NCBI RefSeq assembly: GCF_949628265.1
Contig: NC_088787.1
Span: forward strand, 6,562,501 to 6,626,500
Source: Cloeon dipterum
Lineage: Eukaryota > Arthropoda > Insecta > Ephemeroptera > Baetidae
Reading direction: 5' to 3'
Length of the DNA stretch: 64,000 nt
Made by a program: the position numbers and the translations under genes. How positions within the stretch are numbered: position 1 is the first letter of the stretch; every line of letters begins with the position of its first letter. Below are positions 27,574 through 51,015 of the stretch, piece by piece. The notes beneath the pieces were generated by a model. It was not told the origin of the DNA, ran no database searches, and saw only the letters and a list, made by a program, of their open reading frames with translations.

Positions 27574-27759
27574 ATGCTCTTCAGACCCTTCTTTTGCTTT
27601 CTCGCGGCTTATATTTTCTTCCTTCTTGCCGCTGCTGCAACGGCATCGGACGAAAAAGGCTCGGATGTGACTACCGAGGAAACACTTGCATTGCCCAATT
27701 CATTGACCAGCTTAGCAAAGGGGTGCAAGAGAACAGTACGCGGCCGATGTCTTAGGTAG
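27574..27759 (+). CDS. Secreted peptide P1 (two-cysteine, cationic tail)
   Basis: 61 residues. Residues 1-24 are a hydrophobic signal peptide (RPFFCFLAAYIFFLLAAA). An acidic spacer (SDEKGSDVTTEE) is followed by ALPNSLTSLAKG and a basic tail KGCKRTVRGRCLR with a Cys-x7-Cys loop. A splice donor (CTTAG|GTAGGA) overlaps the stop; splicing to TTTCAG|TTAGC near 27816 would still stop at once, giving ...RCLS. A TATTTTAAAAG and TCAGT initiator precede the ATG. It is a tandem duplicate of P2, 1.3 kb downstream. Layout resembles insect antimicrobial-peptide precursors, in particular the single-loop hairpin of thanatin, but I cannot prove homology. Confidence 0.75.
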   Translation: MLFRPFFCFLAAYIFFLLAAAATASDEKGSDVTTEETLALPNSLTSLAKGCKRTVRGRCLR

Positions 27760-28189
27760 GAAGTAATTTTGATGATTTAATATAACAATTTGAATTATTT
27801 TTCTTTTGCTTTCAGTTAGCATGAGATTAGAGACAAGTCCGTCAAGCCATCAAGAAGTGATGATTTTACGTTTTATTTCGACAGTAATTAAATTATCCGT
27901 TTGCTTGTAAATGGATTATACTCTGCGTTTTAATATATTTCAAATGATTTAAACCATAATTGTTTTATTTATATTAGCTTAATTAGATATCCGATTATTA
28001 TAGCTTAAATTTAAAGAATATTTTTAAGATCAAATATTTATGGAATATTAGTTTCAGAAACGAAAAAGGTAGCTTATTGCAATCATAATCACTAAATTAA
28101 ATTAAATTCAATGAGACCAGAAATTTAAATACGGAGTTTTGAATAATTTAAAAACAATAAAACTGTTTTCAGAGCATTTCTCCACCAAA

Positions 28190-28908
28190 TTCAAGCTTAT
28201 TTCCTCAACAATTAAAATTTTAACAAGAAATCAGGTGTCAAATTTCATTATTTTTTAGCTCCCTGAAAATAGCATAAAAAATTTGGATTTTCTTTCATTC
28301 AAATACATAAAATGTTGGCTTAAAATCCTTAAAGTTGCCAAATTTACAAGGATTAATTAAATAAAAAAACACGAATCAAATAATGACAACTTTTTCTGGG
28401 AAAAAATATGGTATCTTAAATAAATATCTTCAAATTAAAATAAAAATCCAGATTATAGCGAAAGGAACCAACCAAAATTCGAAATAGCTGAAATTTTCCT
28501 GATAAAACAAATATTGTTACTTCTTTCTTGAATTCTGAATTGGAATAAAGCATTTTATTGAATTTAAAAACATAATTTCTCGTTATCAATCCTTTCCGCA
28601 TTGGAATTAAAATAATTGCCAAATTTTTGCAACCCCAGGAATCAATGAATGACAGCCAAATCATGCCCCAGAGATAAGGGAAAAACATTCAAGAGAGTGA
28701 TGAAAGAGCTTAAATGTTAGTAAACAAGAGAGTAATCTTTGACGTCTGCAATTTTTGGAGCAATCGGTCAACGTTGCCATGACCTTTTTGACTGACGATG
28801 TGGCATTGAATCGCTTCATGAGAGAAGCGAAATTAATCGAATTCTTTGGTGGCGATCGTTCGTTCTATTCTAAAAGCGATATCAGTCGTCAGTGAGCTGG
28901 CTGCCATC
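28190..28908. repeat. Tandem-duplicated flank of P1/P2 (partner 26780-27573)
   Basis: Shared blocks include 'caatcaagaagaaatcaggtgtc'-like AT-rich sequence, 'gaacctt..tcctcattg' and, close to the genes, 'agcgatatcagtcgtcagtg'. The P1 and P2 genes are therefore one duplicated unit. Confidence 0.65.
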
Positions 28909-29091
28909 ATGCGATTCGGACACTTCTTTTGCTTTCTCGCGGCTTATATTTTCTTCTTTCTTGCCGCTGCTGCAACGGCGTCCGACGTAAATGCGACTTC
29001 CGGGAATTCAGATGATGCAATTCCCTATGCAATTACAAACATAGTAAAGGGTTGCCAGAAAGTACGCGGGCGGTGTATTAAGAAAAGGTAG
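28909..29091 (+). CDS. Secreted peptide P2 (thanatin-like Cys-x6-Cys tail)
   Basis: 60 residues, starting at the ATG that aligns with P1 rather than an in-frame codon further upstream. Signal peptide 1-24 is almost identical to P1 (CFLAAYIFFFLAAAATAS). The spacer DVNATSGNSDD is acidic with one N-glycosylation sequon (NAT). The tail IVKGCQKVRGRCIKK has six residues between the cysteines, the spacing in thanatin (CNRRTGKC). The stop lies at a donor (AAAAG|GTAGGA) as in P1; the acceptor is TTTCAG|CTAGC near 29147. The 5' flank repeats the P1 flank for several hundred bases. Confidence 0.75.
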   Translation: MRFGHFFCFLAAYIFFFLAAAATASDVNATSGNSDDAIPYAITNIVKGCQKVRGRCIKKR

Positions 29092-29979
29092 GACATTATT
29101 TCGAGGATTTATTTAACGATTTGAATTATTTTTCTTGTGCTTTCAGCTAGCAAGAAATTAGAGACAAAGAGCTAAAGAAGTCCGTCAAGCCATCAAGTGA
29201 TGCTTTTCCGTTTTATATTTCGATGATAATTAAACCATCCGTTTGCTTGTAATTGGATTAATAAATTTCAAATGATTCAAACACATGTGTTTCTATTTAA
29301 AAGGCTTACTTACAATCAGCTTTAATTTACAATAAGGCCAGAAATAGAGATAATTTTATTTTTACACCGTGTTTTTACGCAACAATTTAAAATTTGAAAC
29401 CATTTCTCCTCCTCATTCTCTACAATCAAAATCAACAATGATTTTTCGGGTTTTTGCACCATCAAAGTGCAGGCAAAAGCTCAAAGTGGAACGAAATGTC
29501 ATTCAACGTTATTGACTTGTTTATGCCATTAAAATTAATCATGGTTGAAATGTTTAAAGACAAAACTTTTAACAAAATTTACTTTTGAGCTACTTTTAAA
29601 GTTTTCAGCGATAAAAAATGCACAGAAAAAAAAATTTTCATAGCAAGAACGCATTTAAAATTTAATAGAGCCTGATGTGAAAAATCAAAACATATTTTAA
29701 AATACTTTATTTTGTCACACCCTAATTTCCTATCCCTATATAATACAATTATTATGTTAAAAACAGCAAAATAGAGCTAATTTCTTGCAATTGTTAACTT
29801 ATTTTCGTGGGAGGAATAAGCTTCTTGGTTAAAATGAAAATTTAATTTATTTTCTCAGAAACTGAGCCATGCCAAACCTGACGAGAGGTGGCGACCAAAA
29901 CGTTCATATTAATAATTAGCTTCTCGCGCGTTTAACCAGTTCTCAGTGTTCAAGAGGCAGCCACGCTGTGAACAACACA
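29092..29979. other. AT-rich intergenic sequence
   Basis: Contains the P2 3' intron and UTR (to about 29290). I see nothing else until the P3 promoter near 29900. Confidence 0.6.
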
Positions 29980-30180
29980 ATGATGCTCTTCAGGTACTTC
30001 TTTTGCGTTCTGCTGGCCCTTACCTCCATCATCGGAGCTGTCTCGGCGTTACCTGTCGCAGATGATGATTCGTTAACTGAGAGCCCAACAACAATAGAAG
30101 AGGATCAACCAATTCAATTCGCTCTTACACGCATATTGGTTCCTCAAAATAGGGTCCGCGGCAAAACAAGTAGCGGTTGA
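29980..30180 (+). CDS. Secreted peptide P3 (no cysteine in the tail)
   Basis: 66 residues from the first of two adjacent ATGs. Signal peptide about 1-23 (RYFFCVLLALTSIIGAVSA). Spacer LPVADDDSLTESPTTIEEDQ is strongly acidic; then IQFALTRIL, the segment shared across the family, and a short basic tail NRVRGKTSSG without the cysteines found in most relatives. A canonical donor (GAG|GTAAGT) lies just after the stop with an acceptor at TCAACAG near 30246, the 3' UTR intron typical of the cluster. TCAGT initiator at 29942. An AATAAA follows at about 30337. A piece of this 3' UTR reappears at 54710-54800. Confidence 0.7.
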   Translation: MMLFRYFFCVLLALTSIIGAVSALPVADDDSLTESPTTIEEDQPIQFALTRILVPQNRVRGKTSSG

Positions 30181-30360
30181 AATATGAGGTAAGTAAAATA
30201 TATATACAATTTATTTCCTTTATTTTTAATGGCTATTTCTCAACAGAACTGGAACAAAGAGACGAATATAGAAGTAAAAACTCACGATATTTGTTGTTTC
30301 GATTTATTAACCTGTAATTTTAGAAGAAAATTATTGTAATAAATTGTTGAGCTTTTAATT

Positions 30361-31296
30361 TATATTAAAAGAATAAAACTAATTTTAATTCAATGACAGC
30401 ATTTTATTTTTTAGGCATCAATCATAGAAATTTAAAAATATAATGTGCGCTGAATATCATTTAGATAAATGTAGATATTAAAACTCATTTGAAGTGGCTT
30501 ATAGTTGGTCGCATTTGGAAAATGAAGCATAAAAAACAATTTTTTTTAATAATAATAATAATTAAAACTACTAGAAAACGACCAGACAAGTAATGATTAA
30601 TACATTCTATTCGTCCATTCTTGCATTACCATTTGCAATTTTTTGCATTAAAGAAAACAAAATCACATTAAAAATAGAAATTAAACATAATACTTTTACG
30701 TACCGCAAAATCTGATTGGCTATTTCTAGCAAACAAATGCGAAGAAAAAGGAGCGCCGCAGGTTTTTAGTTGGGATGCCACGCGTCAATGTCAAGGCTGG
30801 AGATGATTGCCCGCCACTTATATACTAGATATAATTGCCCAGTTAATAACACATATACAGCGAATGAGACCTAACAATAATTACACCTTTCATACCTTAC
30901 ATACCTAAAAATTGCTCCTTTTTCGCTGTTTTTTTTATCACGTGCAAAATTCAAGCACAGAGGCGCATGAGAAAAGCGAAAGAATTAGAAACAGCTATAT
31001 TATATAAGCGCTTGGAACGAAGATTTTGATTAATAAAAATAAAAGTCTAATTAATTAATTAATTTCTGGCTATCTTGCTTCTAAGTCCTAGAAAAAATTG
31101 GTGATTTTTATAAGACTGATTAAAAAAGTCTAAGAACAAATTAAAACTGTTTTTTAATTAAAAAAATACAAAAGACCTACGGACACATTCTGAAAATTCA
31201 TTTAATAAAATGCTGTAGAAAAAATGTTCTAATTTTTGTGGCATTTTGATTATTAATTTACAAGTGCTTATTTTTCCATTTTTTGCATTCATAAAT
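30361..31296. other. AT-rich intergenic sequence
   Basis: No gene, repeat or motif that I can support, apart from short A/T runs. Confidence 0.6.
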
Positions 31297-31724
31297 TTAA
31301 ATAGGAATGATACTGGAAAAGCCTGGAAAATGCTTGTTGCCATTGCATAAACTCGTCCCTTAGGATCCAGTTAAAGCGTAAATTGACCTAAGAAGCACTG
31401 CAATTTTTTGAGAAAATTGGCTGGAAGGTTACCGTGCTTTTCAAATGGTAATGGCTGTATCCTTACTTGAAATCCGATTTAATTTCAAAACCAAGAGTTT
31501 CCCCAATAATTGGCAAACACAATTGGACAGATCTCGACGAGAGCAATCGGAATATGCCAAGAAAATATGTTCAAGCACTGTACATTTTGGAGAAAATTGG
31601 AAAAATTTGAATTTTTACTGTAGGAAGGTCATTTTTTTATTATTGCAAATTGCTGAACGAATTGTTTATGGCATCGAACAATTCAAATAATTTTCAATTG
31701 TTGCCCAGTATCATTCCACTTTAA
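31297..31724. mobile_element. piggyBac-like MITE (family 2)
   Basis: Left end TTAAATAGGAATGATACTGG, right end CCCAGTATCATTCCACTTTAA minus one base; same core as the 18484 copy. Lies about 280 bp upstream of P4. Confidence 0.8.
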
Positions 31725-32004
31725 AAAATGAAGTTTTCGAGATAAAAGCAAAGTCGTCAATAATAAAGGACTGACAACAAGAACCAGCTATTTGAATTTT
31801 TTATCATCTTGCTCTTCTTAATTGGGAGAACCCGCATTGCAGAATCCTGGCAGCAGAGTTTTCATAATGTTATATAATATGATCAGCGCGCGCTCTCTCT
31901 CAGGTGAAATCTACCGCGCAGGTCTTCTCGTTTTTGCCTTCCTCGTGCTGAAATTGGCAGTGGTGAGCAGTGATCTGGAGGCAGTCGCGCTGCGCACGTC
32001 AACG

Positions 32005-32223
32005 ATGCTTTTCATATTCAGGCACCTCTTTTGCGCTCTCCTGGCTTTTTCATTCATCCTCGCTGTCGTCACGGCCGCGCCTGTTGGAGATGATCCACAA
32101 ACGGACACTACAGAGGAACCCGCGGATGACCTGGAAGTAGTCAAGTTCTCTATCGTTAGTTCCCTGACTCAGAGGAAATGCCCTGGAGGACAAAAGATAA
32201 ATACACGAGGGAGGTGCAAATAA
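32005..32223 (+). CDS. Secreted peptide P4 (Cys-x11-Cys)
   Basis: 72 residues from the ATG that aligns with the other family members; the frame is open well upstream (to 31822) but that extension includes a second hydrophobic stretch and no family similarity, so it is probably 5' UTR. Signal peptide about 1-25 (HLFCALLAFSFILAVVTAA), acidic spacer VGDDPQTDTTEEPADDLE, then VKFSIVSSLTQR and KCPGGQKINTRGRCK. The CPGG...RGRC tail recalls secapin-type CPPG...RC peptides. A donor (ACACAG|GTAAAC) follows the stop. It is sandwiched between two family 2 MITEs in opposite orientation. Confidence 0.72.
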   Translation: MLFIFRHLFCALLAFSFILAVVTAAPVGDDPQTDTTEEPADDLEVVKFSIVSSLTQRKCPGGQKINTRGRCK

Positions 32224-32260
32224 TAAGCCTAAATCAAACACAGGTAAACCAACTGATTAA

Positions 32261-32703
32261 TTAAAGTGGAATGATACTGGACAACAATTGAAAATTATTT
32301 GAATTGTTGGATGCCTTAAACAATTGACCGATAAACAATTTGTTCAACAATTTGCAATAATAAAAAAATGACCTTCCTACAATAAAAATTCAAATTTTGC
32401 CAATTTTCTCCAAAATTTTGAGTGCTTGAACATATTTTCTTGGCATATTCCGATTCCTCTCGTCGAGATCTGTCCAATTGTGTATGCCACTTATTGGGGA
32501 AATTCTTGGCTTTGAAATTAAATCGGATTTCAAGTAAGGAGACAGCCATTACCATTTGAAAAGCACGCTAACTTCCCAGCCAATTTTCTCAAAAAAATAC
32601 AGCGCTCCTTAGGTAAATTTAGGCTTTAACTGAATCAAAAGGGACGAGTTTATACATTGGCAACAACCATTTTCCAGGCTTTCCCGGTATCATTCCTCTT
32701 TAA
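32261..32703. mobile_element. piggyBac-like MITE (family 2), reverse orientation
   Basis: TTAAAGTGGAATGATACTGG at the left and CCCGGTATCATTCCTCTTTAA-type right end; reverse complement of the 31297 copy. Confidence 0.85.
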
Positions 32704-32990
32704 TATAATAAAAATCTGCAACATAATTATTTTTTAAATTGTTTGTAGATTGCCAATAAAGAAAGGACACATGTGAAACCTGCGAGTTAGGCAACCTGCT
32801 TTTGATTTATTTACACCGATTTATATTTTTCCCCTCCATAAAATTTATTTTATCACTTCTTAGCATTAAGAAGAATTTATGGACAAACCAGCCTACCTTT
32901 TTTTTATTAACAACAACTCCTCTTTCGGCCTTCTTGCTAAAATAAAAACCCGTCAGTATTCAGGAGGCTGTCGCGCAGTTGACATCAACG

Positions 32991-33203
32991 ATGCTCTTCA
33001 GACACTTCTTGGTTTGTTTCTTTCTGGCTTTTTCCTTCGTCGTCGGCGTCGTCACGGCGTTGCCCAGTGAAGATGATTCGACATCGTCAGAGGAGGAGTT
33101 CGAACCAAGTCAATTCACTCTTACACGCACAAAAGCGTTGAAACCACCGTGCCCGTATGGACAAAAATTGGGACGCAACAAGAAGTGCTACAAACCTCTG
33201 TAA
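32991..33203 (+). CDS. Secreted peptide P5 (Cys-x11-Cys)
   Basis: 70 residues. Signal peptide about 1-23 (FLVCFFLAFSFVVGVVTA), spacer LPSEDDSTSSEEEFE, the family segment SQFTLTRTKAL, then PPCPYGQKLGRNKKCYKPL. The loop CPYGQKLGRNKKC has the same spacing as P4. ATG context 'catcaacgATGctcttcag' is shared with P7, P9 and P11. An AATAAA lies at about 33380. No clear intron at the stop, unlike the relatives. Confidence 0.72.
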   Translation: MLFRHFLVCFFLAFSFVVGVVTALPSEDDSTSSEEEFEPSQFTLTRTKALKPPCPYGQKLGRNKKCYKPL

Positions 33204-33727
33204 TCTTTGTTAAAAAGTTAAGAAAAATTATAATTTTTTTAATCTAACACTGCTATTGTTTGCTTTCAAGCCGTTAACATGCATTCTTTTAACTTCGTGT
33301 ATGTTTATTTTAATGTAAGTTCTGTGCTAATTGTTTGTACAAATATTTTTACAAGTGCCAGGAGAAACATTTGATAAAAATAAATTTAAGAATGATTTAA
33401 AATCAAATTGTATTCTTTACTAAATAACCCGCCTAATTTTAAGTAATCAGACAATATAAAATCAAAAATTTTAATTGGATTTCACTTAAGATCCATTTTT
33501 AACATTTTCATCAAAGAAACAATGTTGAGGAAAGGAGTTTTATTTTTATACAACCTGAACTATTTAATCCGCACTCCTTCTAAGGAAAACCAGAATTATA
33601 CAGCAGCCGAATTTGCATATTTTTGCGCTCTCAAATACCATCGCTGCCGCACGAATTCTCTCCTTTGACTTTTTTCCTCATTAAAACCGAGCAGTCGTCT
33701 GAAAGCAGTCGCACTGCGCGCATCAAC

Positions 33728-33946
33728 ATGAAATTCAGGCACTTGTTCTCTCTTCTCCTGGCTTTCGCCTTCATCCTCAGTGCTGTCACGGCGATTCCAG
33801 TCGAAGATGATCCGGAAAATGACACCTTGGGAAGCGATCAAGAGGATCAAGAGATCTTGGAAGCATCTCAGTTCAGTTTCATTCGAACAGCGGTGAAAGG
33901 TCAGAAAATAGGATGCACATCAGGATTGAGAAGGTGTCGTCCATAA
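33728..33946 (+). CDS. Secreted peptide P6 (Cys-x6-Cys)
   Basis: 72 residues. Signal peptide about 1-22 (HLFSLLLAFAFILSAVTA), long acidic spacer (EDDPENDTLGSDQEDQE), the segment SQFSFIRTAVK, then KIGCTSGLRRCRP with six residues between cysteines. A donor (CGAG|GTAAAC) sits directly after the stop and an acceptor ATCTAG lies near 34047, so the 3' UTR is spliced as in the relatives. AATAAA at about 34184. Confidence 0.72.
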   Translation: MKFRHLFSLLLAFAFILSAVTAIPVEDDPENDTLGSDQEDQEILEASQFSFIRTAVKGQKIGCTSGLRRCRP

Positions 33947-34910
33947 GACGAGGTAAACAAATATCCGAAACAATTTGGTTGTTTGTCTTTTTCTAAATTA
34001 AGTCTTATTCAACTGTTTTAATTAATATTCACGTCCTTCCATCTAGCTTGCAATTGAAAAAAGGACAGATTCTGGACAACTATGGATAAACAAAAGCACC
34101 TGTAAAGTTTGTGAGACGACCAGCTTATCGTATTGTTTAAATATTTTTGTAATATTTTAACTGTCATAATAATAATTATATAATAAATTTCAACATTTAC
34201 TTAAACTCGATTTTCATTTACCCAGCTCCTAATAAAGTGCGGACAGAATAAAATCACATTTTATGTAGATTAATATGCAAATCACAGAGAGCCGTTGGAA
34301 TTTTTTGCATTTACTTCTAAAGAAAGCAAAAAAGCTCCAGTGAAAATTTGCCGTCACGTTGGAGCGCACGTGCTGGATGTGAAATAAAACCAGGTGGCAT
34401 TAGTCATTACCTCTCACGACGTCATCTCTGTTTAGGCAGGTAATTTGGCCTTGATTGTTAGTTAGCGGGGATTTGTACATACTGCTCAACTCCTGGCTGC
34501 CAAAATGCAAAAATTTAAACCTTATTGCGAGTTGAGTTGAAGCCTAATTTACTCAGGCAGCACTGCAAATTTGAGAGAAATGCATGCTTTCCCTACTTGA
34601 ATTATAATTTAATTCATATCAATGTTGCAAAAAATATAAAAAAACTCATTGGGATAGATCTAAACGAAAGGCGCCTAATTACGCCATTAGGATACCATAA
34701 AGCATTTGATTTTTAGGTCGATCTTTTAAAAGATTACATCATTCCTATTAATTTGTGTGAGCAACAGAATCTTTCTCCGAATCTATGTGCCAAATTAAAC
34801 ATAATTGCTACGTTCTCAGGAGGCTTCCGCCGCACAGGTATACATTACCTTTCGGCATTTTTTTTTAAAGAGTCATTGTTCAAGAAGCAGCCACGCAGTT
34901 TACATCAAAG

Positions 34911-35159
34911 ATGCTCTTCAAATACTTGTTTTGTTTACTCCTGGCATTTTCCGTCATTTTCGGTGCTGCCACAGCCTTGCCCGCCAAAGATCCCAATTCG
35001 GAGACCTTATTGCCAAGTCAAGACTCGGAGGAAGTTGAAGCAGCTCAATTTGATCTTACAAAAATGGCAAAGAAATCAATCAGATCAAAATGCCCTGGAG
35101 GAATGAGACCACGCGGCAGAATGTGTGTCCCAATAGAGAAATCAACTTCTAAACAATGA
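34911..35159 (+). CDS. Secreted peptide P7 (MLF type, Cys-x10-Cys), tandem unit 1
   Basis: 82 residues. Signal peptide about 1-23 (KYLFCLLLAFSVIFGAATA), spacer LPAKDPNSETLLPSQDSEE, segment AQFDLTKMAKK, then KCPGGMRPRGRMCVPIEK. Ten residues separate the cysteines, as in secapin. The donor AATGAG|GTAATC overlaps the stop region, acceptor TTTCAG near 35230. A diverged TATA-like 'ggtatacatt' lies at about 34838. Closest to P9 and P11; with P8 it makes the first A-B gene pair. Confidence 0.75.
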   Translation: MLFKYLFCLLLAFSVIFGAATALPAKDPNSETLLPSQDSEEVEAAQFDLTKMAKKSIRSKCPGGMRPRGRMCVPIEKSTSKQ

Positions 35160-36715
35160 GGTAATCAAATCACAAAATAATGGAATTTATTTTATTTTTG
35201 GCACTAAATTTTTTGCATGTATGTTTCAGATTTGCAGGTTTGATTTTGAAACAAGCGAAAAGCTGAGGTTTTCCAAGCAGATGCAAGTAACACATCACTT
35301 TGCATTTAGTACAAAAAAGATTTGTTTGCAATGAGAAAAAAATTAATATCTTAATAAAATTCCAATTAAGCTTTAAAAATTAAGTGTTTTTTAATAGTTA
35401 AACACACGTTTGTTGCAAAGAATTAATTTAAGCTGAGTAAATTTGAAAATCTAGAGTTTTATAAGGATGTGACCTTGATCGTTGGTTAATTACTTCCGGC
35501 TATTATATTAAAGAGCAGAGCTAAAAGTAAGTTTATAATTGCTGCGTCCAATCTTTTAGCACTTTGGGTGTTGAACAGAAATTACTGTGTGGACGCACTT
35601 TGTCCGCCCTCTTTTTTCTCAAGCCACTTCTTTGTAAATGACGTGCGAATAATTCTAGAAATCCCATCGGTCTTGCTGAAAAAAAATATGTAATTATTTT
35701 ACTTTTTGACATAGCAAGTGGTGCCGCAGGAGAATTTTTTTTTGTTCTTTCCAACATTGTTTTTCTCTTGTCGCAATTTGACACCAAAGTAAAATATTTA
35801 CAAAAAATTAACAGCTTATTAATTTTATATGGAACAGCCCTTTTTCATTAAACCCTGATCCCTGATTAATTGGAAAAAAAGTAAAACAATCTTCTCTGCA
35901 GTGAAACTAAAAATTTCTGACTGTAAAACAAATAAATAAATATATTTTAGGCTAAAAATAAGACTTGAAATTGTAAAATTTGGACAAATTTACCGACACG
36001 TACAGAAGTCATACATTTTCAGCCAGTTTAGATTATTTATAGCATAGTGCAAATCAAAAAGTTTAATATTTCCGTGACAGTACCAAATCGTCTTAAATTT
36101 ACACCAGCGCCAAAATATTTATAAATGCGAACATTACATTGATTTGAATTTTTTTATCCTTCTTTACATACTTTTTCTAGGTAAACAATTGGTGCATTGA
36201 ATACAAAAATTCCAGCTTCTTCTTTTCAAAAATGCTTTTTAACAATCTTCCACATGCGCCTTGCAGTGGAAAGCACGCTGTGCCGCAGAACAGTCCTCCA
36301 GTGCGGGTGGCATAACTAGAAATAAATTAAATTTTTCTGTTTTCATATTACGTTTTATTTCAAGACAAAGTTCAGCTCAAATCCGTCTCTTTCGGCCCGT
36401 CAGAAGAGTGTCACAAATCTAAACGACAGCCCGTCGATCTTTTGTTACTGCGAGGAAATTTACGCAGATTCTGTCGACGGCTCACATTTTTGCGCCACGC
36501 CTCAATCGAATCCTCTCGCTTATTGACATTAAATTAATATTTATTCACAACTGCATAAATTTTCTCACAGTTTGCACTATTCTTGTTGTGTTTGCCGTCC
36601 TATGATCCCTCCACTCTAATTACATATCCGCACTCTCCACGCGCCTCTTGGCGCTTTTGCTGCCGCGGTTTTAAATCGCGCTCCGCAGTCTCAGAGTCCG
36701 CGCGAACCGCGAATC
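35160..36715. other. Spacer between P7 and P8
   Basis: Contains the P7 3' exon, a minus-strand frame at 35533-35660 with relatives in the other two tandem units (39400-39520 and 45290-45355) and the 62-bp element. The minus-strand frame looks decayed in the relatives and I do not call it a gene. Confidence 0.5.
36253..36315. other. Conserved ~62-bp element, copy 1
   Basis: From CGCCTTGCAGTGG through AGAACAGTCCTCC to GTGCGGGTGGC. Almost identical copies lie at 40171-40236 and 48750-48816, while the flanks have drifted. On the minus strand it could read ALEDCSAAQRAFHCKA, with CTAG or CTTCTAG acceptor-like sequence before it; as RNA it could fold with an inner GCAC-GCT-GTGC hairpin. Nature undecided. 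Confidence 0.6.
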
Positions 36716-36901
36716 ATGCAAGCCAAGCATCTCGTTTGTTTCCTCCTCGTCCTTCTTGCCGTCGTGACGATTGCACTGGCACTCCACTATTCAGTTAACT
36801 CCTCAAAAGGAAACTCAGAAAACGGAACAAATGCAACTCACTCTGCTCTAGTAAATATACTGACGAGAAAGCAAACCTGTCGCCGTGGAAAATGTGATTG
36901 A
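36716..36901 (+). CDS. Secreted peptide P8 (AR/TK type, Cys-x4-Cys), tandem unit 1
   Basis: 61 residues. Signal peptide about 1-23 (HLVCFLLVLLAVVTIALA), spacer with two N-glycosylation sequons (NGT, NAT), the segment HSALVNILTRK and the very short tail QTCRRGKCD. Splicing as in P10, P12 and P13 (ACG|GTAAG; acceptor CCTAG|ACTGG) falls after the stop here. The signal peptide LAVVTIALA is shared with P10 and P12 and differs from the MLF-type genes, so there are two subfamilies. Confidence 0.7.
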   Translation: MQAKHLVCFLLVLLAVVTIALALHYSVNSSKGNSENGTNATHSALVNILTRKQTCRRGKCD

Positions 36902-38031: not shown

Positions 38032-38036
<5 letters not shown>

Positions 38037-38064
<28 letters not shown>

Positions 38065-38065
38065 T
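38037..38065. repeat. (GA)n microsatellite
   Basis: About 14 GA units in a row, preceded by TGTGA. Confidence 0.95.
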
Positions 38066-38620: not shown

Positions 38621-38659
38621 GTTTCGGAAGCAGCCAATTCCACGCAGTCGACATCAACG

Positions 38660-38899
38660 ATGCTCTTCAGACACTTGTTTTGTTTTCTCCTGGCATTTTC
38701 CTTCACTTTCGCTGTTGCCACAGCCTTGCCCGCCAAAGATCCCAATTCTGACACCCCATTGTCAGAGCAAGACTCGGACGAAGTCGAAGCTGTTCAATAT
38801 ACATATTTTTCAACCTTAACAAATAGCAATTCACAACAAACACGTACAAAATGCCCTGAAGGAACGAGACCACGCGGCAGGGGGTGTGTAAAAGGATAA
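38660..38899 (+). CDS. Secreted peptide P9 (MLF type, Cys-x10-Cys), tandem unit 2
   Basis: 79 residues. Signal peptide about 1-23 (HLFCFLLAFSFTFAVATA), spacer LPAKDPNSDTPLSEQDSDE, segment VQYTYFSTLT, then KCPEGTRPRGRGCVKG. Net charge switches from strongly acidic in the spacer to basic in the tail, a pattern of antimicrobial precursors. The donor AATGAG|GTAATC lies after the stop, acceptor TTTTAG near 38988. Nearly identical to P11 over promoter, coding region and 3' flank, so the duplication is recent. Confidence 0.78.
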   Translation: MLFRHLFCFLLAFSFTFAVATALPAKDPNSDTPLSEQDSDEVEAVQYTYFSTLTNSNSQQTRTKCPEGTRPRGRGCVKG

Positions 38900-40170: not shown

Positions 40171-40236
40171 ATACGCCTTGCAGTGGAATGCACGCTGTGC
40201 CGCAGAACAGTCCTCCAGTGCGGGTGGCCCAACTAG
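40171..40236. other. Conserved ~62-bp element, copy 2
   Basis: Same element as at 36253, in the same place relative to the flanking peptide genes (after P9, before P10). Confidence 0.6.
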
Positions 40237-40279
40237 AAGTTAATTAAATTTTTCTGTCTTCGCATCTTATTGTTTATAG

Positions 40280-40635: not shown

Positions 40636-41023
40636 ACGAGTCATTGACAAAAAAATCACTCTTTTACTGAGAACAAAAACCGATTTTTGCTGTCACTGAG
40701 ATTTTACTCTAAAAATTTTCAACTTGTCGTTATTGATATTTTTTGCGTTTGATTTTTCAAGCCGATGGTTGATGATAATCATTCTCTCGGCCCGTGAAGA
40801 GAGTTCTGGTGACACAAACACACCGACGCAACGAGAGCTAGCCAGTAAACCTTTTGATACACTTCTTGTTGCGTTTGCCGTCCTATGATCCCTCTTCGCC
40901 GACAAAAGCCACTCAAATTACATGTCCGCACTCTCCTCAACCGGCCCTCTTGGCGCTTTTGCTGCCGTAGTTGTGATCATTCGTGCTCCAGTCGTCCGTC
41001 CAGTCGCACAGTCCACGCGAACC

Positions 41024-41258
41024 ATGAACGCCAGGACCCTCGTTTGTTGCCTCTTCGTCCTTCTTGCTGTCGTGACGATTGCACTGGCACTCTACTTTTT
41101 GGTTGACTCCTCAAACGTCCCAGGACATCAGGAGGCGCTATTTTTTCGTATATTCACGGAAGGCGTTGAATGTAACCGTAGAAAATGTATTAAGGTAAGA
41201 AGAAATATCAAAAACTGTTTATTGGTAATTATTTTTACTCAAACTTTAGACTGGATAA
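41024..41258 (+). CDS. Secreted peptide P10 (AR/TK type, Cys-x4-Cys), tandem unit 2
   Basis: Exons 41024-41194 and 41250-41258 (AAG|GTAAGA, TTTAG|ACTGGATAA), 59 residues. The start is the ATG that aligns with P8 and P12; an open frame upstream is 5' flank. Signal peptide about 1-23 (LVCCLFVLLAVVTIALA), hydrophobic middle EALFFRIFTEG instead of the usual acidic spacer, and tail VECNRRKCIKTG. CNRRKC shares CNRR with thanatin but has a shorter loop. Forms the second A-B pair with P9. Confidence 0.68.
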
Positions 41259-43782
41259 AAAAGAGGCTTTAAAGATGCAGCGATTGCGTGTCTTATTGGA
41301 CCACAAACATCACGAACATCTTTCACCTGTACTATGCAACAAATAAATAATACTCATTGCTCCTATGATTTCGTTTATATATCACTATCACAATAACCTC
41401 GAACTTATTTTCACCTCTCAAGATTAGATTGTGCCGCAGACGTATCATTCATTGAAAATATGCAATAAATTTATTAGTTTTCGTTGTTTGAGCAGAAGGC
41501 ACATCTAGAGTAATCATTTGATACGGAAGTTTTAAAAAAAAAATGCTTAAAGAGGAATGAAATAGTGAATTTCCCCGCAGAAATCATTTGACACACTTAC
41601 AGATCAGGTCTTCATGTAAAGTTTGGAGAAAATCGGCTTCAAAAGTTAGAATTGTTTTAAAAGAAAATATTTGAAAGGACTTTTGAAATTTTCACTGAAT
41701 TTGCGCATGTCCCCAAAGAAAGAGTCACACTCTCAGATAGATCTCGATCAAAGGATTCAAAATCATGTGAGAAAACACAGTTTACAGAACCCCACATTTA
41801 TTAAAAAAAACACTAATGTGGTGAGAAAATGTATCTGATGATGACAAAAATTATGTATGTCGCTTTCACATACATACACGTACAAAGAAAACAAAATAGC
41901 ACGTAAATTTATTGAAATTGTTGACTCCGCGTGTCCTCGCACACGTGAATTAATTGTAATATTTCATACATTTTATTTTTATTTTAAATTTGCCATCTTA
42001 CCGTTTAAATTCCTAAGAAAACCATGCGAGAAGCACTGCGTCTTCATATTGAAAATCAAGATTCACTTAAACAAACTGTGATAAATGGAGAAAAATCGGA
42101 TTTTTTATATCAACAATTAATGTAATTCCCCAGAGAGTAGCATAAATATGCGCTGTAAATTTTGGGAGAAAATTTGAAAATTTTTAAAATGGAAAGGTCT
42201 ATTTTGAAAAATGGATATTGTTAAACAATCGAATTTAAATTTTGCTTGGTTAGGAGAAGATCTAAACTTATTTTGATAAAAGTGTAAAAATCAAAACCAT
42301 AATTATTTTATCATTGCTTAGCTGATAACTCTAATGAATTTTTGCCAACAATTATATGAACACATCACTGCTGATAGCTACATTATTTAAAAAAATAGAA
42401 TTTAGTATTAAAATTAATTACTAAACTTCATTTCAAATAAAATAGAAGCAAAAAACCCTATTTGTTAAATTTTTTAAGCAACATACAAACTGCAAACTAA
42501 AAACCTGCTTTCACACGGGAAAAACTATTTTAACTAAAATAATATTATTATTGGCCTGAGAAAGGTCGCTAAAAATTTGAGCGCCAGAAAAAAATTCTAG
42601 CGCAAAGAAAAAAAAATGATGCAGTGCTTATACTTCTTGCCAGCAACGTGTCTGGCAGGGCCACCGCGCAGGAGTGTTCAAGCGGAAGGGTAGCCTGTCT
42701 CACCTGTTTTGGGCACGCATTCTTTTACAATTAGCGCTGTTTATAGAGGAGGATTTACGGCTCAATTAGTCCGTGCGAAAGGAAAGAGGAAAAATGATAC
42801 GGCTTATTTATACGCATTATTTACCTGATGAAAGCGGCGAACGGACAACACGCAGCTTCCCAAGGATGAGCATGAGCAGGGGAGAGAGAGAGAGAGACAG
42901 GTCTTGCTCGGTTGGCAATCGATAGAAGAAGAGACCAGGTCCAGAGAGGGAGGGGTCGGCTGTATGATTTACGACAAGCAACTCAGCTGCAATAAAATCA
43001 ACAAAAGGCGCCTAGAAATCTGGTCTCGCAATAAGTCCGAGTTTATTTGAACGATATTTATTACTGTTTATGATTAATTGGTATGAAATTAGGTTTTTAT
43101 TTATTGGCAGAGTTTACAGTGCATTATCACATCAATTAATTCGAAAAGAAATTCATTCAGTTAAATAGAATAAACAATTAAAGACAATTTGGAAAGGTAT
43201 AAGTCACAAAATTCTTACAATTTAAAAAATGGAAACTAATAATTAAATGATTGACAGGTTTTTATTTATTTTTTTTGCCACTTTAACAAAATTGTCCAGC
43301 GTCTGTCCTTTTTTATTTATTTATTCCTACAATTCAATGAAGGAACATGAATATTAATTAGAACAGTCGAATAAGACTTATAATAGAAGATACATTGCTT
43401 CAGTTAATATATGTTTACCTTTTTTTAGTTTCAGGACGACACTTCCCTTTCTTTCCGCATATCGCTTCTGAACGTAAGATAGTGGACCCAGATATTCCGG
43501 TCCGGCACTGAGTGAGGATGAAAACGAAAGGCAGGAGAGGAGAGAACAAGTGTCTGAAAATCATGTTGACGCGAACAGTATGCGACTGCTTTCAGACGAC
43601 TGCCCAATTTGAATGAGGATAAAAGCGGCAGCAATGGCTCCTCAGAGCGCAAATACATACGCCAATTATGCTGCTGGTAAATAAGTTGAGTGAATTCAAT
43701 GACGAACATAGAGTCAACTTTTTTTATCCCACCAAATTTAATTTTTTTGCATCCCTTGATTTTTATTAATTATTTGCATTCA
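41259..43782. other. Intergenic region between P10 and an Mth relic
   Basis: P10 3' UTR with AATAAATAAT near 41343. 41548-41800 and 42000-42230 are degraded pieces of dispersed repeats ('gagaagcactgcgtctt' recurs at 50487). 42870-42960 is GA-rich. An open minus frame at 43431-43709 has no support. Confidence 0.5.
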
Positions 43783-44175
43783 GCCCAAGTTGGTAACGGA
43801 ACTTTGCTTGGTATGTTTACATCCAAAGAGGCTCCACACATTTTTTTGTTGCACAGGAGGATACTACTTTGCTGAGTTTGTAATTTAGTTGTTTTGCGCA
43901 CAATGATATGGTAATTGTGGCGGTTGCCAACTATTACTGATCAACGATGAGAACTCCATTTTCAATCCAACTATGGGAAATGGAGTATCATCGGTATTAA
44001 TTAAGGAAATTTCGTGACGGAAATATTTAAAAAAAAATCAAACCACAAAGTTTTTCGCGAGGAGGTCATTGTGTGCATTGACGTGAAGTATGTATGTAAG
44101 GAGAGGAGCTTGAGCAGCTGATTTTGTTGAAGCCAGCCCGTCCTCAAATAATCTACTAAATTCATCGAGGGGTAA
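43783..44175 (+). pseudogene. Methuselah-like receptor relic
   Basis: Short piece homologous to intron 4 and exon 5 of Mth-2 and Mth-3: 'catccaaagaggctccacaca', then 'tttgctgagtttg', 'aacgatgagaactccatttt' and 'ggaaatgga', followed by a fragment like the receptor 3' end ('gaggagcttgagcagctgat'). Frames are broken throughout and exons 1-4 are missing. It lies between peptide units, 7 kb before the receptor array. Confidence 0.75.
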
Positions 44176-44469
44176 ATATTGGACACGCTTTTGGCTTTGT
44201 TATTATCAGTTAATCGTTTATCAAATACTTTTTATTTAAATTTTCTTTCATTCAAAATTGAATTAAAATGTATAATAATATAGAAAACAAATTTATTAAA
44301 AAAAAAAACATTTCATAGAGAGCTTTTATCTTCATCACCACATGGCTCATTAATTAACATTGTCACGACTTAGTTGGTGAAACAGAATCTTTTCTTCGCA
44401 TCTCCGCCTTTTGGTGCAGAATTAAACATAATTAATTGTTACGTTCTCAGGAGGCTTCCGCAACGCAGG

Positions 44470-44507
44470 TATATATTGTCTCTCTTCTCTTTTTAATATA
44501 AGTCAGT
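44470..44507 (+). promoter_or_regulatory. P11 core promoter: TATATA and TCAGT
   Basis: TATATA at 44470-44475 and TCAGT at 44503-44507, the same pair as in P9. Confidence 0.6.
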
Positions 44508-44546
44508 GTTTCGGAAGCAGCCAATTCCACGCAGTCGACATCAACG

Positions 44547-44783
44547 ATGCTCTTCAGACACTTGTTTTGTTTTCTCCTGGCATTTTCCTTCACTTTCGGT
44601 GCTGCCACAGGCTTGCCCGCCAAAGATCCCAATTCTGACACCCCATTGTCAGAGCAAGACTCGGACGAAGTCGAAGCTGCTCAATACTATTTTTCAACCT
44701 TAACAAATGGCAATTCACCATAAACACGTACAAAATGCCCTGGAGGAACGAGACCACGCGGCAGGGGGTGTGTAAAAGGATAA
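44547..44783 (+). pseudogene. Secreted peptide P11 (MLF type), broken copy, tandem unit 3
   Basis: Close copy of P9 with intact promoter, signal peptide (HLFCFLLAFSFTFGAATG) and acidic spacer, but the frame ends before the cationic two-cysteine region, so no family-type peptide would be released. The region encoding the tail is still well preserved after the break, which points to a recent loss. It could still express a signal-plus-spacer product. Confidence 0.75.
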
Positions 44784-45348
44784 TCATCTTTTCAACAATG
44801 AGGTAATCTAATCGCAAACATTTAATTTGTTTGATTGTTGGCACTAAATTTATTGCTTGTATGTTCCAGATTTGGTTTGCTTTCGATAAAATAGCAGAAA
44901 GCTGAGTTCTTCCACGCAGAAGAAGCAGCAAGAAATACCGCTTCACATTTAGTACAAAATGGATAGTTTGTAATAAGACAAAAATATTTACAATTTTTTA
45001 ATAAAATTTTGTTTTCAGTTTAAAATGTTAATGTGTTCTTCTAATTGTTCACCAATTAAAAATATTGAAAACGTACGTCGGAAACAATTTATTTCAAATT
45101 GCGTGCATGACTCTAAAATCCTAGAGTTGAAAGGTAAATGAAGTCTGACATGACACACGGTTTGTTGGATATTTATTTCCTGGCTATTATTTTAAAGAGC
45201 AAGAGCTAAAAAGCAAAAGCGGCGTCTAATGTTTGGCACTATGAGCAGTGACGAGCAATTATTACAGTTTATTGCGCGTCTGCTCTCTTTTTCCCAAGCC
45301 AATTATTTGCTAACGACGTAAGTGTAATTCCGGAAATTCATCATTTTT

Positions 45349-45356
45349 GCTGATAA
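45349..45356. repeat. Target-site duplication, left (GCTGATAA)
   Basis: Eight-base repeat matched at 48032-48039; one copy only at the paralogous empty site 39452-39459. Confidence 0.85.
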
Positions 45357-48031
45357 TAGAGCACTGTGCGGTGTCAATTTTCATTACCATGGTAACCGCA
45401 TTTTTTTAAATCAAAAACCACAACCGCATCGGTCTTGACAAAAACCGTAGTTGCGGTAACCGCAAAATTACCGCAAAACCGCAATTTATTTAATGTTTTA
45501 GAACAAAATAGTTTTCTTTTGGCAAGGCTTAAATTTAATTATTTCTGCGTGCAACTCCATATCGCGGGTTTTAACCATCATAATTGCAAAAACTTTTCAC
45601 CGTTAGACTCGTCTTTACCTTCCCTGAGCAGCTGGAGGGTTTAGGGGTTCTTACCCTCCACCCCTATACTTTAAACCCTTCGGAAATGAATAACATTTTA
45701 TAGCTCTGGATAATTTTATTAATTTACATTTTATTAAAAAACATTTTTTTTAGTTTTGGTTGAATGGGCGGGGTGGTAATTTAGTAGGAATTTAGGATGA
45801 TTTTAAATGTTTTGAAGCCAAGTCGATGCAAATGGAAGCAGATTAATTTTTTTATTAAAATTGAAGCAATGGGGTTGAGAGGGGATGAGGGTAAGTTCCC
45901 CATAAACACTTTGCCTGTTTAGTGGAGGTCAAGGCGAGTCTAACGGAAGTACATTTTTGCAATTCTGATTGTTGGAACCTGAGATTTGGAGGTTCAAAGA
46001 ACCCATAAAGTGGAAAAATGTAACTTATATTAAGTTATGAAATAACTATCAAGATATCCTAAAAATTACGCCATTCTGAAAAATTTGGCCCGGTTTTTAA
46101 TTGCGGGCACACATTTAAGTGGCTCTTGATCCGATCAACTTGTCCACTAAAAGAAGCCCAAATATTCCATTTATGATGCATCAATAACGTTGCTTGATAT
46201 TAGATTTAACACTTAATTTATTCAAAGAAAGGAGATTTTTTTAAATTTATGGTATATCATAAAAAGTGCCGTGCGAATTCCCAGAAATTACAACAACGTT
46301 ATACAAATACCCGTCCCGCGCGACTGCGGGACGCCCTACCCGTCCCGCGTGACTGCGGGACGCCATACCCGTCCCGCGGGACGCCCTACCCGTCCCGCGT
46401 GACTGCGGGACGCCATACCCGTCCCGCGGGACGCCCTACCCGTCCCGCGTGACTGCGGGACGCCCTACCCGTCTCGCAGGACGCCCTACCCGTCCCGCGT
46501 GACTGCGGGACGCCCTACCCGTCCCGCGTGACTGCGGGACGCCATACCCGTCCCGCGGGACGCCCTACCCGTCCCGCGTGACTGCGGGACGCCATACCCG
46601 TCCCGCGGGACGCCCTACCCGTCCCGCGTGACTGCGGGACGCCCTACCCGTCTCGCAGGACGCCCTACCCGTCCCGCGTGACTGCGGGACGCCCTACCCG
46701 TCCCGCGTGACTGCGGGACGCTCTACCCGTCCCGCGCGACTGCGGGACGCCCTACCCGTCTCGCAGGACGCCCTACCCGTCCCGCGTGACTGCGGGACGC
46801 TCTACCCGTCCCGCGTGACTGCGGGACGCCATACCCGTCCCGCGGGACGCCCTACCCGTCCCGCGTGACTGCGGGACGCCCTACCCGTCTCGCAGGACGC
46901 CCTACCCGTCCCGCGTGACTGCGGGACGCCCTACCCGTCCCGCGTGACTGCGGGACGCTCTACCCGTCCCGCGCGACTGCGGGCCGCCCTCCCCGTCTCG
47001 CAGGACGCCCTACCCGTCCCGCGGGACTGCGGGACGCTCTACCCGTCCCGCGTGACTGCGGGACGCCATACCCGTCCCGCGTGACTGCGGGACGCCCTAC
47101 CCGTCCCGCGTGACTGCGGGACGCCCTACCCGTCCCGCGGGACGCCCTACCCGTCCCGCGTGACTGCGGGACGCTCTACCCGTCCCGCGTGACTGCGGGA
47201 CGCCATACCCGTCCCGCGGGACGCCCTACCCGTCCCGCGTGACTGCGGGACGCCCTACCCGTCCCGCGTGACTGCGGGACGCCCTATCCGTCTCGCAGGA
47301 CGCCCTACCCGTCCCGCGTGACTGCGGGACGCCCTACCCGTCCCGCGTGACTGCGGGACGCCCTACCCGTCTCGCAGGACGCCCTACCCGTCCCGCGTGA
47401 CTGCGGGACGCCCTACCCGTCCCGCGTGACTGCGGGACGCTCTACCCGTCCCGCGCGACTGCGGGACGCCCTACCCGTCTCGCAGGACGCCCTACCCGTC
47501 CCGCGGGACTGCGGGACGCTCTACCCGTCCCGCGTGACTGCGGGACGCCATACCCGTCCCGCGTGACTGCGGGACGCCCTACCCGTCCCGCGTGACTGCG
47601 GGACGCCCTACCCGTCCCGCGGGACGCCCTACCCGTCCCGCGTGACTGCGGGACGCTCTACCCGTCCCGCGTGACTGCGGGACGCCATACCCGTCCCGCG
47701 GGACGCCCTACCCGTCCCGCGGGACGCCCTACCCGTCCCGCGTGACTGCGGGACGCCCTACCCGTCCCGCGTGACTGCGGGACGCCATACCCGTCCCGCG
47801 TGACTGCGGGACGCCCTACCCGTCCCGAGCGACGCCCTACCCGTGCTAAACAGTCGCATAATAAAAATGGTAAATTTTGATTCTCAAGATTTGCGGTTTT
47901 TGGTGGTACCACCGCAACCGCAAAAATGAAACCGCAACCGCACCGCAACCGCAAAATTATAACCGCATCTGCGGTTGTGGTGGGCGGTTTGTGGTTTTTT
48001 AGTACCAAAACCGCAACCGCACAGTGCTCTA
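45357..48031. mobile_element. hAT-like non-autonomous element carrying a satellite
   Basis: 2675 bp. Terminal inverted repeats TAGAGCACTGTGCGGT and ACCGCACAGTGCTCTA, 8-bp target duplication GCTGATAA: the hallmarks of hAT elements. Subterminal sequence is full of 'aaccgcaaaac' / 'gcggtttttgg' repeats at both ends. Inside are a dispersed repeat (45540-46020) and the GC-rich satellite (46310-47850). No transposase frame. Confidence 0.85.
46310..47850. repeat. GC-rich palindromic satellite, 29-bp and 21-bp units
   Basis: Tandem array built from a 29-bp unit (ACCCGTCCCGCG-TGACTG-CGGGACGCC[CT/AT]) and a 21-bp unit that lacks the central 8 bases (ACCCGTCCCGCGGGACGCC or ACCCGTCTCGCAGGACGCC). Each unit is itself a hairpin (CGTCCCGC / GCGGGACG). 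The order of long and short units recurs in blocks, a higher-order structure. Open frames across it are artefacts. Confidence 0.95.
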
Positions 48032-48039
48032 GCTGATAA
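48032..48039. repeat. Target-site duplication, right (GCTGATAA)
   Basis: Matches 45349-45356. Sequence after it continues the unit paralogous to 39460 onward. Confidence 0.85.
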
Positions 48040-48749
48040 TCAAATAGAACTTTTTCGTGTTTTGACACCGCAAGGTCGTGGCGTAGGAGCATTCGCTTTT
48101 CATCTTTTCTACGTTGTTTTCTTTAATTTAATTTCATAGGACACTTTCTTCGCAATTTGACACCAAAGTAAAATATTTAATTACCGAAAATTAGTTATTA
48201 TTTTTTTAATTGGAAGAAAATGTGATCGACAGCAGCCCATTTTCTCATTAAGCCTCTACAGTAAAAAGTAAAAAAAAAAACATTTCCTTTGCACCGAATT
48301 TATAAATTTATTTGAATAAATTTGACAATTTTGTATTTTTGTATCGATTGAAAAGGGTCAAGTTTTTTTAAGAAGGCTGAGTGATTTGATTAAACTAATT
48401 TCGACTTTGAAACAGGTCAACATAATTTCAGTATTTGTTTATCAGCTGTAATTTTGATTAAAATTTGGAAACATTTACTCATACATTAAATCCAAAAATT
48501 TGCACTTTTGCATAAAATATCAGCAAGTTCAGATGGTTTATAGCATATGTACAAAAGCACAACGCATGATGATTTTTTTGTAACAATTAAAAACTCACAA
48601 AAAATAATAATTTGTCTAAAATTTACGTTGGTTTAATTTTTTTGTTATTCTCTCAATCCTTCTTCTTGGTAAAGAAATGGTTCATTTAATAAAAAAATAT
48701 ACAGCATTTTTCCTCTAACAAAAATTATTGCTCAAAAACTGGCACATTA

Positions 48750-48816
48750 CGCCTTGCAGTGGAAAGCACGCTGCGCCGCAGAACAGTCCTCCGGTGCGGG
48801 TGGCCTAACTAGAAGT
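48750..48816. other. Conserved ~62-bp element, copy 3
   Basis: Third copy, with two or three base differences from the others, between P11 and P12. Confidence 0.6.
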
Positions 48817-49143
48817 AAATTTTTAAAGTTTTCTCCGTTATTACATCGTCATTGACAAAATCATGGTTTTAATAAGAAAAAAAAATGATTTGGGTCATCA
48901 TTGAGGGAAGAAATAATATATTTTCTATGAATCTTAAGTTTTTCGTGTTGTGACCATTTACATTTTTATTTCAAGTCAAAGTTCAGCTCAAAAGCAGATT
49001 GTTGCGACAATCAAACAGGGAAAACTTCTCTGTTTAATAATTATTAAAGCTTTGAGCGCTGCTGGCGAGCAGAGAATCTCTCTCTGTTTCGGCCTTCTTG
49101 GCGCTTTTGCTGCTGTGCTCCAGTCTCTCAGTGCACGCGAACC

Positions 49144-49419
49144 ATGCTGACCAAGCCTCTCGTTTGTTTCCTCTTCGTCCTTCTTGCTGTCGTGACGATT
49201 GCACTGGCGGACTACTCTTCATCTTCAGATTACGTCTCATACGAAGACTCAGAAAACGGACCAAATGCAACTCAGTTTTCTCTAATCGATGCAATGGCGA
49301 GAAAGTGTTCTGAAGGAAAAATGCGTCGCCGTGGAAAATGTGTTAAAATTATTACGGTAATTAATCAATCGAAATCTGTATATTGGTAATTATTTATATT
49401 CAACTTCTAGACTGGATAG
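49144..49419 (+). CDS. Secreted peptide P12 (AR/TK type, Cys-x10-Cys), tandem unit 3
   Basis: Exons 49144-49356 and 49411-49419 (ACG|GTAATT, TTCTAG|ACTGGATAG), 73 residues. Signal peptide about 1-22 (LVCFLFVLLAVVTIALA), acidic Ser-rich spacer (DYSSSSDYVSYEDSENG) with an NAT sequon, the segment TQFSLIDAMARK and tail KCSEGKMRRRGKCVKIITTG. The loop is long like the MLF-type peptides, unlike P8 and P10 of its own subfamily. TTG tail comes from the tiny second exon. Confidence 0.75.
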
Positions 49420-49842
49420 AGAAGAGGGTTAAAAGATGCAGCGATTGCGTTTCTTATTGGACTACGGACATCACGATTGAAGATCTTTCGCCTGCTTTGC
49501 ATTTTCCTATATAATATGTAACCAATAAAATATACTAAATAATATTTTTCCTCTTTGGATTTTGTTATGCAACATTTTTCCTTGGCAACATAAATTTCGT
49601 ATTTTTTTTCATATTAAATTTTACAGAAGGGAATAAAAAATTGGCAACACGTTCTGCAAGGTTAAAACTGATTTTTTTTATCATGGGCCACGGATAAAGT
49701 GATCATTTATATTTTTGCGTTTGATTTTATTTCAAGTCAAGGTTCAGCTCAAAGACAGATAGTTGATAATGTCTCTCTCTCTTGGCGCTGTTGCTGCCGT
49801 ATAGTTAAAAATCGTGCTCCAGTCTCACAGTCCGAACGAACC

Positions 49843-50118
49843 ATGCTGACCAAGCCTCTCGTTTGTTTTCTCTTCGTCCTTCTTGCTGTCGTGATGATTG
49901 CACTGGCGGACAACCCTTCATCAGATTCCTCCTCAAACGAAGACTCAGAAAACGGAACAGATGCAACTCAGCTTACTCTATTTGGAACATTGACGAGTGG
50001 CCGTTCTGAAGGAAAACGTCGCCGTGGAAGAGGTCTTGAAATTATCACGGTAAACAAAAAAAATATTAAATCTGAATATGTATGGTAATTATTTTTATTC
50101 AACGTCTAGAATGGATAA
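49843..50118 (+). CDS. Secreted peptide P13 (AR/TK type, no cysteine in the tail)
   Basis: Exons 49843-50049 and 50110-50118 (ACG|GTAAAC, TCTAG|AATGGATAA), 71 residues. Very close to P12 in signal peptide (LVCFLFVLLAVVMIALA) and spacer (DSSSNEDSENG), but the tail GRSEGKRRRGRGLEIIT has neither cysteine, so it would be a linear Arg-rich peptide. Tandem duplicate of P12 without the flanking MLF-type gene. Either a functional linear variant or a copy under relaxed constraint. Confidence 0.7.
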
Positions 50119-51000: not shown

Positions 51001-51015
51001 TTTATGAAAAGAAAC

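Follow-up and report, generated by a model that had tools for sequence, protein, structure and literature searches.

The peptide genes and their closest described counterparts

Growth-blocking peptides (GBP/PSP/ENF peptides) such as Drosophila GBP1-2 are insect cytokines that come from small secreted precursors in which the looped part is C-terminal; with the stress-responsive peptides (SRPs) they are treated here as one immune and stress hormone family, GBP/SRP. In the passages of a review drawn on here (PMC6439351), GBPs follow the consensus C-x(2)-G-x(4,6)-G-x(1,2)-C-[KR] and are recorded from six insect orders, mayflies not being named among them. The same passages state that Drosophila GBP acts via Mthl10, the only GBP receptor known at the date of the review, and call the extent to which the GBP-Mthl10 pathway is conserved unclear. 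Here we describe a cluster of short peptide genes lying among Methuselah-like receptor genes in the mayfly Cloeon dipterum, in a 64,000-nucleotide window (C2:6562501-6626500) of a 190-Mb genome assembled in 10 contigs, of which C1, C2, C3 and C5 appear below. We narrowly favor reading the cluster as a lineage-specific tandem expansion, in the mayfly, of small secreted signaling peptides of GBP/SRP type, possibly acting through the adjacent receptors. A search of the open-licence literature, outside which most subscription papers fall, found no mayfly GBP, and the words 'methuselah' and 'cytokine' are absent from the main text of the Cloeon genome paper (PMC7250882).

Reading of open reading frames (ORFs) identified 13 related units on the + strand between 27574 and 50118: 12 open precursors of 59-82 amino acids and one copy with an in-frame stop. 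All follow a common layout, in which a hydrophobic leader is succeeded by an acidic or Ser-rich spacer and then by a basic tail with a net charge of +2 to +7. One Cys loop of 4 to 11 residues is present in 10 of the 12 open window tails, and the remaining two have no Cys. The initial annotation had described 13 clustered genes for secreted peptides, with loops of 4, 6, 7, 10 and 11 residues and two loop-less members, and our reading agrees with it on each of these points. The window peptides form three sub-groups whose profiles mostly recover one another, partly via the leader; this recovery is weakest for the 41024 gene.

A short 3′ intron (54-60 nucleotides) falls within the last codons of all three genes that we modeled with a splice, 41024, 49144 and 49843. 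The spliced 49843 product is identical at 65 of 71 residues to an annotated Cloeon dipterum protein, P0001 (71 amino acids), and the splice is supported because P0001 ends where the model predicts. P0001 likewise lacks both tail Cys. The Cys-less form is thus present in two Cloeon assemblies and, for that reason, is probably not mere decay. Searching a protein collection with the family alignments returned no annotated record for the window's 12 peptides, which appear to be unannotated in the records searched. Across 5.8 billion sequences, two family alignments matched one Cloeon protein and nothing else; this type of search needs shared 5-residue words, and relatives in other insects could escape it.

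Related genes occur elsewhere in the genome. Single-protein genome searches placed three at C5 26.415-26.417 Mb, four at C3 3.646-3.650 Mb, one at C2 35.67 Mb, and further paralogs on C1 at about 41.05 Mb (at least three) and 41.32-41.34 Mb (at least nine). The C1 counts are of places read among more matching places, and the C1 tail that ends locus L056 runs on without a stop and is possibly truncated. Twenty tails were read outside the window, which with the 12 window tails gives 32 over six genomic places. By sequence the C1 genes are tied weakly to those of the window, a C3 query reaching them at E 0.004 or worse, and their putative membership rests on shared architecture and motif. The secreted-peptide cluster at C1:41324318-41336342 (L053-L057) has tails of the type CPxGFxFxRGxCR. 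At the C3 locus, two paralogs with Cys-less tails (L023:1176-1397 and L023:4176-4361) sit beside two with three Cys each; loop loss has thus also occurred in the C3 cluster.

Loop motif and profile similarity of the tails

We compared the tails with the GBP consensus in two forms, a core motif without the terminal [KR] and the full motif with it. The core motif is present in 4 of the 12 window tails and in 20 of the 32 tails overall (shuffle mean 0.71), and the full motif in 1 of 12 and 12 of 32 (shuffle mean 0.22); since paralogs are non-independent, the shuffle means are a guide and not a probability. Ten of the 12 C1 tails read, the 41.05 Mb genes included, carry the full motif. The 234 kb of DNA examined contains 79 leader-like short ORFs, and the core motif is found in 8 of these, all 8 being family members. 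Short-loop and Cys-less members are left out of the putative GBP class because the defining motif is absent from their sequences.

Profiles built from the tails were searched against 177,635 PDB sequences at E ≤ 10. The 10 long-loop tails (5 of 12 from the window and 5 of 7 from C3 and C5) gave two matches in all, 'Chemokine' 2rps (E 0.11) and 'Stress Response Peptide-2' 5w54 (E 0.19). The 20 motif-bearing tails of the 32, whose matches are therefore not independent of the motif, returned 5w54 (E 0.003) and 2rps (E 0.028) as the top two of 8 matches. When the motif was ignored and all 28 Cys-loop tails were used, leaving out the four Cys-less tails, 2rps (E 0.012) and 5w54 (E 0.033) were again the top two of 8. 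One permuted and one reversed 10-tail profile matched nothing in the PDB, as did a phmmer search with one full precursor. Pfam scans of 17 peptides and NCBIfam scans of 8 gave weak matches only, below curated cut-offs.

By these sequence comparisons, the scores for the cytokine entries are weak. The search result gives names only, and we take 2rps and 5w54 to be noctuid moth hemocyte or stress cytokines. The long-loop mayfly tails resemble both entries in being short peptides with one Cys loop that opens with C-P-x-G, has a G near the second Cys and is followed by V (in 34911, 38660, 49144 and three C5 members). No similarity was detected beyond the loop, and, unlike the two entries, the mayfly family is spread over many tandem genes, includes members with short loops or no Cys, and reaches 3 or 4 Cys in part of its C3 and C5 copies. 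Set beside the GBP/PSP/ENF peptides, with which the family shares a small precursor and a C-terminal loop, most window members lack K or R after the second Cys or lack the motif. A profile search had been proposed in the initial annotation; run against the PDB, it places the tails nearest to two entries of the immune or stress signaling kind, not to venom peptides or direct killers of microbes, but weakly and largely through C-P-x-G. The suggestion there of an undescribed immune or venom-type family survives in part: the peptides are small, loop-bearing, fast-varying, predicted to be secreted and probably defence-related, but 'undescribed' and 'venom-type' fit less well with weakly scoring cytokines as the nearest PDB entries.

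Methuselah-like receptor genes and a candidate signaling role

The peptide cluster is enclosed by an array of Methuselah-like (Mth-like) G-protein coupled receptor (GPCR) genes that had been overlooked in the initial annotation. The 453-residue product of the 24147-25805 gene is 100% identical to RefSeq 'probable G-protein coupled receptor Mth-like 1 [Cloeon dipterum]'. This gene and a receptor fragment at 51008-51277 flank the cluster, and the Mth-like array continues from 51 kb onward. A tblastn search with GPCR exons placed 10 first exons to the left and right of the cluster within C2:6.553-6.642 Mb. Two are on the - strand before the window begins, one belongs to the 24147 gene, four fall in the right part of the window and three lie beyond it. 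One further Mth-like gene had no first-exon match. In a second Cloeon assembly, P0001 and the receptor relatives P0003 (88%), P0007 and P0008 are all listed with a 273,203-base contig, which we take as one and the same. Because this assembly seems to share it, the linkage of peptide and receptor genes is suggested not to be an assembly artefact. Another receptor relative, P0005, is listed on a contig that is apparently C5.

The neighboring receptors are, by their sequences, clearly class B-type GPCRs: the Pfam family 7tm_2 matches the 24147 gene at E 4.4e-9 and 5 of 7 related Cloeon proteins at E ≤ 1. The Methuselah ectodomain PF06652 weakly matches 4 of the 7 Cloeon relatives at E ≤ 1 (best 0.0011) and does not match P0002, and 4 of the 7 bear Mth-like or Mth2-like as their source names. 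Source names and weak PF06652 matches, rather than structure, thus support a probable Methuselah ectodomain. An AlphaFold model of the receptor has a pLDDT of 38.9, too poor to compare. Counting genes by a genome scan with PF06652 was dropped; it gave three weak places and missed the window's own genes because their exons are split.

Working from the gene structures, relatedness, motif in some members, weak profile similarity, receptor co-location and faster tail divergence observed here, we infer that the peptides are secreted, cut and disulfide-bonded, that they act as cytokines, and that the Mth-like GPCRs next to them are their partners. Each gene would encode a prepropeptide in which an acidic spacer separates the leader from a basic C-terminal part. 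Once secreted, this part would probably be released by cleavage at a basic residue, within the Q-F-x-L-T region or downstream of it, and close as a one-disulfide loop, C-P-x-G-x(4-6)-G-x-C; Methuselah-like GPCRs would be the receptors on which it works as cytokine or stress hormone. Short-loop and Cys-less members would be derived variants; that they engage the same receptors or act as decoys is speculation. The arrangement recalls Drosophila, where a GBP-type ligand and a Methuselah-like GPCR, Mthl10, are partners in the review passages cited above (PMC6439351), but the mayfly ligand-like and receptor-like genes adjoin in one tandem locus and their pairing is putative. A more far-reaching proposal, which we hold only tentatively and think doubtful, is a ligand-receptor supercluster: fast-diversifying GBP/SRP-type cytokine genes would be nested in the array of genes for their own Methuselah-like receptors, matched variants would be held together by linkage, and new pairs, including those with Cys-less or short-loop ligands, would arise by local duplication.

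Should the peptides be of GBP/SRP type, the family would reach a mayfly, deep (early-branching) among winged insects, and would be large there, with 12 open genes in the window and at least 20 tails elsewhere in the genome. Adjacency to Methuselah-like receptors supplies concrete ligand-receptor candidates and makes conservation of the GBP pathway testable at this locus. The paralogs also offer natural variants for structure-activity studies, with loops of 4 to 11 residues or no loop at all.

Several results weigh against assigning the cluster to the GBP/SRP type. Even the core motif is missing from 8 of the 12 open window tails, of which two are Cys-less, five have short loops (4, 4, 6, 6 and 7 residues) and one has an 11-residue loop. 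A 20-tail profile with permuted loop columns, in which C-P-x-G was kept by chance, still matched 5w54 at E 0.021 and also matched properdin (E 0.033 to 0.043), not 2rps; the profile similarity is therefore carried largely by C-P-x-G and Cys spacing, together with the flanks. With the unpermuted 20- and 28-tail profiles, von Willebrand factor chains come next after the cytokines, at E 0.12 or worse. Six C1 tails alone matched neither cytokine in the PDB and gave one chance match (E 8.6), and other GBP/PSP structures, presumably among the PDB entries, were unmatched by the tail profiles. Pfam GBP_PSP (PF02425) had no match at E ≤ 10 among 17 peptides, 10 of them from the window, with HMMER filters on, and a genome search with PF02425 gave 0 matches, but the controls were equally silent. 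On the receptor side, tblastn found no Mth-like exons in the roughly 19-25 kb that flank the C3 and C5 peptide clusters on each side; peptide-receptor linkage is seen at 1 of 3 places checked. (The C1 loci also showed no Mth-like exon, but at 3.2 kb each they are too short to judge.) Co-location may be incidental, as other tandem genes, resembling leucine-rich-repeat (LRR) genes, share the region. Finally, no solved structure was found for the receptor ectodomain, and all 12 PDB matches of the receptor family profile are membrane regions of adhesion GPCRs.

Alternative readings, tail divergence and features of the window

Secapin-like peptides offer the strongest alternative, although we consider it unlikely. 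In the passages drawn on from PMC11335235 these are basic beta-hairpin peptides with a single disulfide loop, features that the looped mayfly tails may share. The locus would then encode single-disulfide hairpin peptides that perhaps normally inhibit proteases or kill microbes and that came into venom use in bees, ants and caterpillars. The C-x10-C loop, pointed out in the initial annotation, speaks for this origin, whereas the nearest PDB entries are cytokines, though the PDB set is not known to include a secapin structure. Secapins and GBP/SRP peptides may belong to one broad superfamily, and hence the two readings are not fully separate.

Tails diverge faster than leaders. Nonsynonymous divergence (dN) is higher in the tail than in the leader in 7 of 7 paralog pairs, four of them in the window (0.26-0.71 against 0-0.15); in pairs with 49144 or 49843, as in the rows of these genes in one family alignment, the frame enters the intron and the last codons are intronic. 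Synonymous divergence (dS) is also higher in the tail in most of the seven pairs. In the tail, dN is above dS for two of the seven pairs, but with 1.0 and 4.6 synonymous changes behind them we do not claim positive selection there. In the leader, dN exceeds dS for three of the seven (27574/28909, 34911/38660 and C3a/C3c). Except for 49144/49843, every pair (6 of 7) conserves the 150-nucleotide 3′ flank better than the tail DNA. Rapid change of the tail fits these data, which do not prove that the tail is under positive selection or the leader under constraint.

Faster tail divergence would also be expected of direct antimicrobial peptides, in which an acidic pro-region precedes a cationic looped tail that acts on membranes and diversifies under pathogen pressure. 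The acidic spacer and the charge of the window tails (+2 to +7) agree with such a role, but charge alone is unspecific, and no Pfam antimicrobial family scored above its cut-off in the 17 peptides scanned. Moricin matched weakly twice (E 0.05 and 0.17), each time in the leader, and the long loops retain the turn-type residues (CPxG) of both cytokine entries. We regard an antimicrobial role as improbable. Least probable in our view is a secreted-peptide cluster of other function (e.g. cuticular, salivary or reproductive) with a convergent GBP-like loop and incidental Mth-like neighbors: the motif is short and missing from 8 of 12 window members, the C-P-x-G-keeping scramble also matches a cytokine and properdin, and the C3 and C5 clusters stand without nearby Mth-like exons, but the motif recurs at six genomic places and was unseen in the other leader-like ORFs of the 234 kb examined, and the two cytokines still come top for the unselected set of 28 loops.

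Table 1. Peptide and Methuselah-like GPCR genes in the window (window coordinates; loop lengths in residues).
Feature	Position	Strand	Basis
Peptide gene, 61 aa, loop C-x7-C, C-terminus RGRCLR	27574..27759	+	ORF, loop reading
Peptide gene, 60 aa, loop C-x6-C, C-terminus RGRCIKKR	28909..29091	+	ORF, loop reading
Peptide gene, 65 aa, tail without Cys	29983..30180	+	ORF, loop reading
Peptide gene, 72 aa, loop C-x11-C, full GBP motif (CPGGQKINTRGRCK)	32005..32223	+	ORF, loop reading
Peptide gene, 70 aa, loop C-x11-C, starts CPxG, fails GBP core motif	32991..33203	+	ORF, loop reading
Peptide gene, 72 aa, loop C-x6-C	33728..33946	+	ORF, loop reading
Peptide gene, 82 aa, loop C-x10-C, GBP core motif then V	34911..35159	+	ORF, loop reading
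Peptide gene, 61 aa, loop C-x4-C	36716..36901	+	ORF, loop reading
Peptide gene, 79 aa, loop C-x10-C, GBP core motif then V	38660..38899	+	ORF, loop reading
Peptide gene, spliced model 59 aa (intron 41195-41249), loop C-x4-C	41024..41258	+	Splice model
Broken copy of 38660 gene, in-frame TAA 44721-44723, end approximate	44547..44828	+	
Peptide gene, spliced model 73 aa (intron 49357-49410), loop C-x10-C, GBP core motif then V	49144..49419	+	
Peptide gene, spliced model 71 aa (intron 50050-50109), tail without Cys	49843..50118	+	Splice model, P0001 identity
Methuselah-like GPCR gene, 6 exons, 453 aa	24147..25805	+	Identity to RefSeq protein
Last-exon fragment, Methuselah-like GPCR, directly after peptide cluster	51008..51277	+	tblastn
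Methuselah-like GPCR gene	51779..53892	+	Exons by tblastn
Methuselah-like GPCR gene; first and last exons match Cloeon 'Mth2-like' P0006 by eye	55785..57674	+	
Methuselah-like GPCR gene	58067..60426	+	Exons by tblastn
Methuselah-like GPCR gene, partial coverage	61483..62597	+	tblastn

Several repeats accompany these genes (Table 1). A GC-rich minisatellite of about 1.5 kb, with units of 21, 29, 50 and 79 nucleotides, lies inside the peptide cluster at 46308-47844; its 2-kb bin is 66% GC, compared with about 35% in the surroundings. A 94-nucleotide element occurs at 36251, 40168 and 48744, the later copies being 91% and 77% identical to the one at 36251. Its copies precede peptide genes 36716, 41024 and 49144 by about 310-860 bases, and the element is possibly a shared regulatory sequence or a duplication remnant. 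An ORF-like segment (..SLLEIRFNFK.K.FPN.W.TQLDRS..) appears three times, on both strands (18599-18883, 31412-31687 and 32316-32555), and looks like a dispersed repeat. To the left of the 24147 receptor gene, several tandem LRR-like proteins were recognized by eye on the - strand at 851-15977; one of four LRR-like stretches scanned has a weak Pfam match (LRR_NXF1-5, E 0.08).

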